From: Candidatus Bathyarchaeota archaeon B26-2
Lineage (GTDB): Archaea; Thermoproteota; Bathyarchaeia; Bathyarchaeales; B26-1
NCBI GenBank assembly: GCA_001593935.1
Contig: LUCE01000003.1
Coordinates: 1-53,388 of the forward strand
Reading direction: 5' to 3'
Length of the DNA: 53,388 nucleotides
The translations under genes were made by a program, and so were the position numbers. Below the pieces are notes generated by a model, which worked only from the letters and a program-made list of their open reading frames with translations, did not search any database and had not been told where the DNA came from. This document shows positions 39,583 through 52,162 of this stretch, one piece after another. How positions within the stretch are numbered: the stretch's first letter is position 1; each line of letters opens with the position of its first letter.

Positions 39583-40704
39583 ATGTCTCATCGGGAAAGG
39601 TTCTTCACGGCGCTAGAGCTGGGAGAGCCCGACATGGTTCCAGTAACTGACTTGGGGCTAGACCCTCCCATCGTCGAAGCGATACTCGGTAGAACCTTAT
39701 CCGGGTTCAGCCTCATAACGGTCTCGGGTGAGGGTGGAGCTTGGGAGACTTCGGTCAAGAACAGGATAGCACTCTCAGAGGCCTGCGTGAAGCTCGGCTT
39801 CGACGCTGTCCCAGCGGTCAGCGACTATACGCTCTGCAGCCGTAAATACAAGCCTAAAACCCTCTCAGGAGGCAGGTTCATAGATGAGTGGGGCAGAATC
39901 TTGGAGCCCAGGCTTGAGAATAAGACAACATGGTATGTTGGAGGAACCGTTACAAGCGAGGAGGAGATGGAGGAGTATCTCCCCCCAGACCCAGAGGAGG
40001 AGGGGAGGTTCGAGCTCGTTGAGAGGGTTCTCAACTCCTTGAAAGGGAAGGACATCGCCGTCATGTGTCAGGGGCATAGCGGTTGGCACATGGCCTTCCA
40101 AGTGAGGGGAGGAATAGACAAGATTCTAATCGATATGTACCGGAAGCCGGATGTTGTGAGGAGGTTCATGGACAAGGTTGCGAAGGCTTGTCTGGGCATG
40201 GTTAAACTTATGATCGATGCTGGCGTCGAGGTTCTCTTCATAACCGATGACTACGCCGACTGCCACTCAACCCTGATGAATCCCTCGCAGTTTAGAGAGT
40301 TCGAGCTCCCGAACATAAAGAAGGTCGTGGAGACCGCTAGGCGTAAAGGCATCCCCGTCCTGAAGCATTCAGACGGAAACGTTGAGTCGATAATAGAGGA
40401 TATGATAGACGCGGGGATAAGGGGTTTCCACCCCTTCGAGCCTGGGGCCATGGACCTTAAGGAGGCCAAGGTCAAGTATGGAGGGAGAATATGCATTCTT
40501 GGAAACGTCGACTGTAGGTATGTTCTGCCCTTCGGGAGTGAGGAGGATGTGAGGAAGGATGTGAGGCGATGCATAGACGCTGCTGCTGAGGGTGGAGGCT
40601 ACATACTTGCCTCAAGCAACTCCATACACGCAAACTGTAAGGTTGAGAACGTATACACGATGGTAGACGAAGCGAGAAGATACGGTAGATACTCTTCTTT
40701 GTAG
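39583..40704 (+). CDS. URO-D superfamily protein, paralog 3
   Basis: MSHRERFFTALELGEPDMVPVTDLG; HSDGNVESIIEDMIDAGIRGFHPFEP; LGNVDCRYVLPFG. Confidence 0.86.
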   Translation: MSHRERFFTALELGEPDMVPVTDLGLDPPIVEAILGRTLSGFSLITVSGEGGAWETSVKNRIALSEACVKLGFDAVPAVSDYTLCSRKYKPKTLSGGRFIDEWGRILEPRLENKTTWYVGGTVTSEEEMEEYLPPDPEEEGRFELVERVLNSLKGKDIAVMCQGHSGWHMAFQVRGGIDKILIDMYRKPDVVRRFMDKVAKACLGMVKLMIDAGVEVLFITDDYADCHSTLMNPSQFREFELPNIKKVVETARRKGIPVLKHSDGNVESIIEDMIDAGIRGFHPFEPGAMDLKEAKVKYGGRICILGNVDCRYVLPFGSEEDVRKDVRRCIDAAAEGGGYILASSNSIHANCKVENVYTMVDEARRYGRYSSL

Positions 40705-47730: not shown

Positions 47731-47938
47731 ACCATCTCCCCACCAAATGACTCTAATGGAGCACTGCTCTTAAATACCCTTTAGAGGCTGGGTGTGGAGA
47801 GAACATTCTTCTCGTCGCCTCTCCCTCCCCTACGACTTTCCCATAGATGCTTGGAGGAGTCTTCTTTTCTCATCGATGAAGAATTTTGAAAACATTTATG
47901 CCTTACCTAGTTAGTTTAGAGAATTATTGAGGTTTGAG

Positions 47939-50077
47939 ATGAACGAGGCTAGGCTCCTAGTCAGTGAGGCTTTTCAAAGGGATGTCGGTAGGAAGATAGT
48001 TAGGATTCCGCTCAGGGTAATGGCTGAGCTCGAAGTCTCCACAGGAGATGTTGTTGAGATTACCGGTAAGCGTTCTACGTGCGCTATAGTCTGGCCCTTA
48101 AGTTCCGACGCTGGTGAAGATGTAATAAAGATGGATGGGCTTCTGCGTAGGAGCGCCGGCGTATCCCTAAACGACTACGTTTATGTGAAGAAGGCTAAAG
48201 TCAGGGATGCGAGCTTAATAGTTATCTCTCCAAGCGGTTATAAGCTCAGCGGCTTAGACGAAGGTTTCAGCCTCCATGTGAAGTCTGTTTTGCTGGACAA
48301 ACCATACGTAACAGGGGACCACATCTCTCTGCCCATATTCGGAGGAAACCCATTATACTTCACTGTGGCCTCTACTAGACCCAAGGGAATCGTCAGAGTC
48401 ACTAGCGATACAAGAGTTGAGGTGACCCCCGAACCGAGAGAGGTCAAGATTGGCGTTCCACAAGTAACCTACGAGGACATAGGCGGATTGCATGAAGAGA
48501 TACAGAGAATCCGGGAGATGGTTGAGCTGCCATTACGGCACCCTGAACTCTTCGAGAGGCTAGGGATAGAGCCCCCGAAGGGGGTCTTGCTCCACGGCCC
48601 GCCCGGATGCGGGAAGACCCTGCTGGCTAAAGCAGTTGCTAATGAGGCTGAAGCAAACTTCTACTCGATAAACGGTCCGGAAATAATGAGCAAGTTCTAC
48701 GGTGAGTCCGAGGAGAGGCTTAGACAAATATTCAAGGAGGCCCAAGAGAAAGCTCCGAGTATCATCTTCATCGATGAAATCGACGCGATAGCTCCAAAAA
48801 GGGAAGAGGTAACCGGCGAGGTTGAGAAGCGAATAGTCTCACAGCTGCTAACCCTGATGGACGGGCTTGAATCTAGAGGTCAGCTCGTTGTGATCGCCGC
48901 GACGAACCGACCTAACGCTGTAGACCCCGCTCTTAGGAGGCCGGGGAGGTTCGATAGGGAGATAGAAATCGGCATACCGGACAAGAAGGGAAGGCTTGAA
49001 ATACTGCAGATCCACACGAGGAACATGCCTTTAGCCGAGGATGTTGATCTGGAGAGAATCTCTGAGATAACGTATGGATATACGGGAGCCGACCTCGCAG
49101 CCCTATGCAAGGAGGCCGCAATGAAGGCTCTACGCAGATACCTGCCGAAAATCGATCTAGAGAAAGAGAGGATACCAGCTGAAGTCTTGAAGAGCATGGT
49201 TGTAAAAATGGAAGACTTCGTGGGTGCTTACAGAGAGATCGTGCCTACAGCCATGAGGGAAGTCTACATAGAGGCCCCAAACGTGCACTGGGAGGATATC
49301 GGCGGCCTAGATGAAGTAAAGCAGAAACTAAAAGAGATGATTGAGTGGCCCCTCAAAAAGCCGGAGAAATTCAAGAAGATAGGCATTAAACCTCCGAGAG
49401 GCATACTGCTCTACGGGCCTCCGGGATGCGGGAAGACTCTCCTAGCAAAGGCTGTCGCAACAGAGAGCGGAGCGAACTTCATAACGATAAGAGGACCCGA
49501 AGTCTTCTCTAAGTGGGTAGGAGAATCAGAGAGGGCGATAAGGGAGGTCTTCCGTAAAGCCAGATTGGCAGCGCCCTCAATCATCTTCATAGACGAGATT
49601 GATTCAATCGCCTCGCGGAGAGAATTGGGCTTTGGAGACTCCGCCGTCTCAGAGAGGGTTATCAGCCAGCTACTCACAGAGATGGATGGGCTGGTCGCCC
49701 TAGAAAACGTGGTAGTCATGGCTGCGACGAACAAACCGCATCTCCTCGACACCGCGCTGCTGAGGCCTGGACGCTTCGACTACCTCGTCTACGTTCCTAA
49801 GCCCGATCAGAAGGCAAGACTTGAAATACTGAAGGTTCAAACAAGGAAGATGGCACTAGACAGATCGGTTCACCTTAACGACATAAGCGAGAGAACGGAT
49901 GGTTTTTCAGGAGCCGACCTTGAAGCATTATGCAGAGAGGCCGGATTAAACGCTATTAGAAACGATAGGGACGTCGTCACGATGGAGGATTTCGAAGAAG
50001 CCCTTAGAAAGATCAAACCGAGCATAACGTCGCGGATGGAAGAAAGGTACAGAACCTTCCAAGAGGAGAGAGAATAG
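47939..50077 (+). CDS. Cdc48/VAT family AAA ATPase (two AAA domains)
   Basis: Two Walker A motifs [15 protein letters not shown], Walker [16 protein letters not shown] and [16 protein letters not shown]-terminal double-psi barrel domain. Confidence 0.97.
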
Positions 50078-51932: not shown

Positions 51933-52030
51933 TGGTGGGGCCGGTGGGATTTGAACCCACGTCCTCGCACGCCCAAGGCGCGAATCTTAGACCATGCTCG
52001 ACCACGGCTTCATGGGACTACGGTCCTCCC
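51933..52030 (-). tRNA. tRNA-Pro (anticodon TGG), CCA encoded, with a 19-nt noncanonical intron at position 3/4. Exon 1: 52028-52030; exon 2: 51933-52008
   Basis: Minus strand: anticodon arm CGCGC-CTTGGGC-GTGCG, T arm GTGGG-TTCAAAT-CCCAC, acceptor 3' strand CGGCCCC-A-CCA; spliced 5' end GGG+GCCG = GGGGCCG pairs perfectly. Confidence 0.93.
52009..52027 (-). other. 19-nt tRNA intron AGGACCGTAGTCCCATGAA with BHB motif
   Basis: 5'-CGG-CATG-GG^A-GGAC-cgta-GTCC-CATG-AA^G-CCG-3': 4-bp central helix CATG/CATG, two 3-nt bulges on opposite strands, inner helix GGAC/GTCC, outer helix CGG/CCG. Confidence 0.87.
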
Positions 52031-52162
52031 ATGCCGGGTTCCAACGTTGGAGATGTCCGACCCCAACATGAAGGAAGAGTCGTCAGCACACTAATAAAGC
52101 TTAAGGAGACTGTTGAAGGTATTTCCGTCGAAAGCACTACCAATTATATAGAAGGTTTCAAC

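Follow-up and report, generated by a model that had tools for sequence, protein, structure and literature searches.

The window analysed here, a 53,388-nucleotide stretch of Candidatus Bathyarchaeota archaeon B26-2 (contig C9 of the host genome), very probably carries a functional tRNA-Pro gene with a 19-nt bulge-helix-bulge (BHB) intron at position 3/4, within the acceptor stem, which is predicted to be removed by splicing. A real 3/4 intron is considered very probable because a strict BHB motif, an acceptor stem that pairs at 7/7 positions after excision, uninterrupted orthologues, EndA and RtcB genes in the host, and other non-canonical introns among the host tRNAs all point to it.

Gene layout and the splice motif

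Read on the minus strand, the locus consists of CCCGG, CAT, GGG, AGGACCGTAGTCCCATGAA and GCCGTGGTCGAGC, in that order, and the gene ends on CGGCCCCACCA at 51933. The parts of the tRNA-Pro are GGG (52030-52028), a 19-nt insert (52027-52009) and a longer stretch opening on GCCG (52008-51933). An initial annotation of this DNA had already placed the insert at 52009-52027 of a minus-strand tRNA-Pro, and both its sequence and its coordinates are correct to the base. The features of the locus are the following:

52092..52098, minus strand: TATA-like promoter element TTTATTA, from a simple consensus scan
52034..52036, minus strand: leader strand of outer helix h, CGG; its partner is CCG at 52005-52007
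52030..52033, minus strand: 5' strand of the central 4-bp helix, CATG (CAT from the leader, G being tRNA nucleotide 1); its partner is CATG at 52011-52014
52028..52030, minus strand: 5' exon GGG, tRNA nucleotides 1-3; the 5' bulge GG^A lies at 52029-52027
52009..52027, minus strand: putative intron AGGACCGTAGTCCCATGAA, 19 nt, position 3/4
within 52009..52027, minus strand: inner helix h', GGAC (52026-52023) with GTCC (52018-52015), loop CGTA
52010-52008, minus strand: 3' bulge AA^G of the BHB
51933..52008, minus strand: 3' exon, from tRNA nucleotide 4 to the 3' end, encoded CCA included
51973..51975, minus strand: anticodon TGG; GGG in every orthologue inspected
52011..52033, minus strand: competing slipped hairpin, CATGGGA (52033-52027) with TCCCATG (52017-52011), a folding prediction

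In the hBHBh' notation (PMC7714728), the site reads CGG-CATG-GG^A-GGAC-CGTA-GTCC-CATG-AA^G-CCG, with every pair Watson-Crick, so that the strict geometry and the GG^A and AA^G cuts proposed initially were reproduced. It thus displays all the features by which a BHB is defined, namely a central helix of 4 bp, a 3-nt bulge on each strand, and outer helices of at least 2 Watson-Crick pairs. With the 19 nt kept, the acceptor stem pairs at 5/7 positions; once they are excised, GGGGCCG faces CGGCCCC at 7/7, the perfect 7-bp partnership that had been foreseen, and the product is a canonical 79-nt tRNA that matches its orthologues save for point differences. The D, anticodon and T arms and the encoded CCA are all intact. 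The junction GGG|GCCG is fixed by the uninterrupted orthologues, which places the insertion between nucleotides 3 and 4. Upstream, TTTATTA lies 68 nt from the spliced G1 and 87 nt from the unspliced start. The genome's other tRNA genes have a median distance of 42, to which the spliced start comes closer, and it is thereby weakly favoured.

Such a motif is rarely produced by chance. The strict form restoring GGG|GCCG appeared in 0/200,000 dinucleotide shuffles of the 90-nt leader (chance <1e-5), and a relaxed form, admitting G-U pairs and an h' of at least 3, restored the junction in 46/200,000. The strict test was also run on 1,419,126 genuine upstream stretches, taken from this genome and its relatives. 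A single stretch passed, and we take it to be the window's own site, since that site passes and was among those scanned. An unbiased enumeration of BHB-like excisions across 188 nt yielded the 7/7 acceptor stem for the 19-nt intron only; alternative excisions giving a good tRNA were sought in this enumeration, and none emerged.

Gene finders see the locus differently. ARAGORN and the Rfam tRNA model each give an unspliced, mismatched gene (51933/51936-52011), which Rfam scores at 43.6 bits with non-standard pairs at acceptor positions 2 and 3, where the unspliced GAAGCCG had been said to form two A·C mismatches. Both start the tRNA at 52011, bearing out the expectation that a gene caller would report a mismatched molecule. 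Their acceptance of the gene as it stands speaks for use of the tRNA without splicing, the two A·C mismatches being either tolerated or mended by C-to-U editing of the 3' strand. We nevertheless regard unspliced use as highly improbable: a non-G before position 4 was found in no relative searched, the unspliced tRNA folds no better than its own shuffles (z-score -0.42, moving to -2.83 upon splicing), and the BHB would be left unexplained.

Orthologues, distribution and the changed anticodon

When the spliced sequence was compared with 101 genomes of the order, the top matches proved to be tRNA-Pro genes at 82-97% identity, which carry an uninterrupted GGGGCCG, GGGGTCG or GGGGCTG and, without exception, the anticodon GGG. 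These orthologues, up to 97% identical, directly display the exact product predicted for splicing. The alignment to relatives that the initial annotation had recommended as a check for the 19 nt thus returned inspected orthologues that are uninterrupted, with GGGG in place, and a GAAGCCG conserved in relatives, which would have spoken against the intron, was looked for and not seen. A pattern for this tRNA without an in-place G3 (any base but G) matched 1/260 genomes of the class, the host itself, some of the 260 having no gene of this tRNA-Pro subfamily. Likewise, under a precursor covariance model, the window reached 136.5 bits and no other locus exceeded 87, whether the search covered the class or 401 phylum genomes; these searches reach this tRNA only and are blind to 3/4 introns in other tRNA families. 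In other families, Pro(GGG) is diverged and in some cases apparently has a D-arm intron. An orthologue of the gene was not found in the same-genus genome G002, which is 84% complete. Given the absence of the intron from relatives, it is a derived, lineage-specific gain in the Pro(GGG) orthologue group.

We also considered whether the intron is homologous to the leaders of close relatives, and rejected this idea, most leaders of family f9 being dissimilar. Separately, genome G078 contains a tRNA-Pro(GGG)-like sequence (L171:371-443) with a changed D arm and no evident matching 5' acceptor strand, which is probably a pseudogene.

The gene had been named tRNA-Pro(TGG), and this name holds for the anticodon, which is TGG, but not for the ancestry: the gene is the orthologue of tRNA-Pro(GGG), with its anticodon changed. 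The host has a second, ordinary and complete Pro(TGG) on contig C61 and a Pro(CGG) on C38, and no Pro(GGG) was detected in the assembly by either a Pro covariance model or a T-arm/acceptor pattern (up to 3 mismatches). A second Pro(GGG) gene hidden by an intron was entertained and set aside, both searches of the assembly having come up empty. CCC and CCT together make up 163/326 proline codons in nine long open reading frames of the window. Three explanations come into view: the assembly may lack an existing Pro(GGG), U34 may decode the whole four-codon box, or T34 may have been introduced by misassembly; the anticodon change could also mean relaxed constraint.

The changed anticodon bears on the reading of the gene as a recently decayed tRNA-Pro pseudogene, in which acceptor positions 2 and 3 would each have gone from G to A, the anticodon would have undergone a G-to-T change, and the BHB would be coincidental. 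The in-place GAAGCCG does equal GGGGCCG with two G-to-A transitions, the anticodon is unlike that of every orthologue seen, and the complete Pro(TGG) on C61 is present as well. However, decay would have to produce, at a chance below 1e-5, a strict BHB restoring precisely the lost GGG, in a gene whose D, anticodon and T arms and encoded CCA are undamaged, and no other gene of this orthologue group was detected in the genome, which is 99.8% complete. With full acceptor pairing after splicing, the gene shows no damage beyond what processing would repair, and we judge the pseudogene reading improbable and a spliced, functional tRNA-Pro the preferred one.

Splicing machinery, folding and proposed order of processing

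The host genome comprises 1.89 Mb in 73 contigs, with an estimated completeness of 99.8% and contamination of 3.2%. The RNA polymerase A' encoded on the same contig as the tRNA-Pro is 93% identical to that of G002, which belongs to the same genus; elsewhere, identity does not go beyond about 80%, the next full-length match being at 78%. On the strength of this difference (93% versus 78%), the contig is correctly binned, and RNA polymerase A' also rules out a mis-binning from another family, which Cdc48 matches had suggested. The Cdc48-type ATPase in question (window 47927-50077, plus strand) has copies at 83-85% identity in no more than two further genomes among those searched in the order; the remaining full-length matches, including a second copy in the host genome, are below 70%, and its named relatives, the nearest included, are mostly Candidatus Bathyarchaeota.

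Two EndA genes, for catalytic and structural subunits, and one RtcB ligase are encoded in the host genome. The 195-aa EndA matches two tRNA-splicing endonuclease chains, 3p1z and 2cv8, from Aeropyrum and Sulfolobus, and keeps the motif GPGIDHAPYLV; the 208-aa EndA is without the histidine of this motif and looks like the structural subunit. From these sequences, we infer a two-subunit endonuclease of crenarchaeal type, which would form an (alpha-beta)2 assembly able to act outside position 37/38. Enzymes of the (alpha-beta)2 type have been associated with non-canonical introns (PMC12397907, PMC4090602).

Other tRNAs of the host carry introns that call for such an activity. The tRNA-Gly(TCC) gene (L030, contig C23 of G000, 40431-40526, minus strand) is interrupted within its anticodon arm, at a non-canonical site, by an 18-nt intron with a strict BHB, whose 3' bulge AA^G is identical to that of tRNA-Pro. 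Lys(CTT) and Val(CAC) have two introns each and need non-canonical excision, and Arg(TCT) probably needs it near 9/10 (the loci for these tRNAs being L246 on contig C34 of G000, L248 on C17 and L206 on C19). A further locus of this kind, L039 on C7, resembles a tRNA-Trp with a long C/D-box-like intron. The host also has three different tRNA-Cys(GCA) genes (L011 on contig C51, L015 and L017), one without an encoded CCA, for which contamination or horizontal acquisition is possible.

Folding predictions count against the BHB. At 37 °C, the BHB is predicted at -7.9 kcal/mol against -11.5 for the slipped hairpin, which is 3.6 better and remains favoured up to 80 °C. This hairpin, the local energy minimum, engages GGA of the 5' bulge in pairing with UCC, and the 110-nt precursor adopts neither the BHB nor the cloverleaf at its own predicted minimum. 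In tRNA-Gly(TCC), by contrast, the BHB is itself the minimum-energy fold. A BHB that is the preferred local fold is not a strict requirement for an archaeal BHB tRNA intron.

In the processing pathway that we propose, transcription would begin upstream of GGG, and the 5' leader, tRNA nucleotide 1, the intron and tRNA nucleotides 5-7 would, given their pairing potential, assemble as hBHBh'. Judging by the enzymes encoded, the (alpha-beta)2 endonuclease would then cut each 3-nt bulge after its second nucleotide, whereupon RtcB would ligate GGG to GCCG to give a perfect acceptor stem. The anatomy of the motif suggests that splicing would have to precede 5' trimming by RNase P, since the leader contributes to helix h and to three of the four central pairs: were RNase P to act first, all of this pairing would disappear, leaving a 5' exon of only three nucleotides.

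Probable attachment sites, possible intron origin and known systems

In relatives, the 5' end of tRNA-Pro(GGG), over nucleotides 2-20, is probably an integrase attachment site. A tyrosine recombinase open reading frame (L071:602-1525; Phage_integrase, 1.6e-23) overlaps tRNA-Pro(GGG) nucleotides 1-25, and an exact 19-nt copy of tRNA nucleotides 2-20 lies about 1.8 kb upstream in genome G069 (L241:18092-18110). Leader repeats of tRNA nucleotides 1-14 at p<0.05 were detected in 12/43 Pro(GGG) genes versus 0/45 other tRNA genes, although the 43 genes are kin and the cases are not independent. Degenerate leader repeats sit mostly at -21 or -22 (in L071, L061, L069, L072, L233, L051 and others). The attachment site was also sought in viral contigs, where no match turned up. 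The putative intron splits exactly the tRNA 5'-end stretch that looks like an attachment site in these relatives, and its first 12 nt are identical to tRNA nucleotides 1-12 at 9/12 positions (p about 0.05).

The repeats near -21 and the 9/12 match would also suit a reading in which the 19 nt were left in the leader as a scar when a mobile element integrated, would represent a degenerate 5'-end repeat, and are not spliced. Its probability seems to us minimal, as the match has a p of only 0.05 and the strict BHB is not accounted for. Scar and spliced intron are compatible, and a scar could have become the intron. Since the likeness reaches only this p value, we offer an origin of the intron from a tRNA 5'-end repeat as a hypothesis; a copy of the tRNA 5' end was tried as the source of the intron and retained as a hint. 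The intron was likely gained, we infer, in the setting of a 5'-end integrase attachment site. A fuller scenario, in which the intron lies inside the attachment site, was gained from or selected against integration, and was accompanied by a GGG-to-TGG change so that a U34 tRNA reads CCC/CCU in a host with no GGG tRNA, is speculative and rather unlikely.

Attachment in the 5' half of a tRNA gene is unusual in archaea (PMC8371274). Integration at a tRNA 5' end has been tied to intron gain in Caldiarchaeum subterraneum (PMC3293823), whose tRNA-Thr(GGU) resembles the present case in combining tRNA 5'-end repeats and an integrase with a disrupted tRNA gene. There, however, the intron is at 24/25 and the evidence is at strain level, whereas here the evidence for integration comes from relatives and not from the locus itself. 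The idea that introns shield tRNA genes is a proposal of Randau and Soll, as relayed in PMC3293823.

Position 3/4 is extremely rare, yet it has a precedent: the review PMC4090602, citing Sugahara et al. 2008, gives a 3/4 intron for certain Thermoproteales tRNAs, a precedent missing from the initial annotation, which called acceptor-stem insertions rare. The acceptor stem is also among the archaeal intron sites of PMC12397907. As described in PMC4090602, the Thermoproteales introns share the insertion point between nucleotides 3 and 4 and the endonuclease-type intron, but here the host belongs to Bathyarchaeia and the gene to the Pro(GGG) orthologue group. In the literature searched, we found no description of 3/4 introns in Bathyarchaeota, which does not establish that none exists. 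The non-canonical hBHBh' tRNA introns of archaea as a whole measure 11-129 nt (median 15; PMC3218864) and share the strict 3-4-3 BHB, here with 19 nt and a host with an alpha-beta-type endonuclease; what sets the present motif apart is that its outer helix, and its central helix for the most part, draw on the 5' leader instead of on mature tRNA.

Taken together, the locus would extend the rarest archaeal tRNA intron class (3/4) to Bathyarchaeia, with intron-free orthologues as outgroups, in a gene for which two standard tools, ARAGORN and Rfam, give a mismatched tRNA with the wrong 5' end. With leader sequence forming part of the splice motif, it would impose a testable order of splicing relative to RNase P. 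Because the tRNA 5' end of its relatives resembles an attachment site, it may also serve to test both the shielding proposed by Randau and Soll and the gain of introns by integration proposed for Caldiarchaeum.
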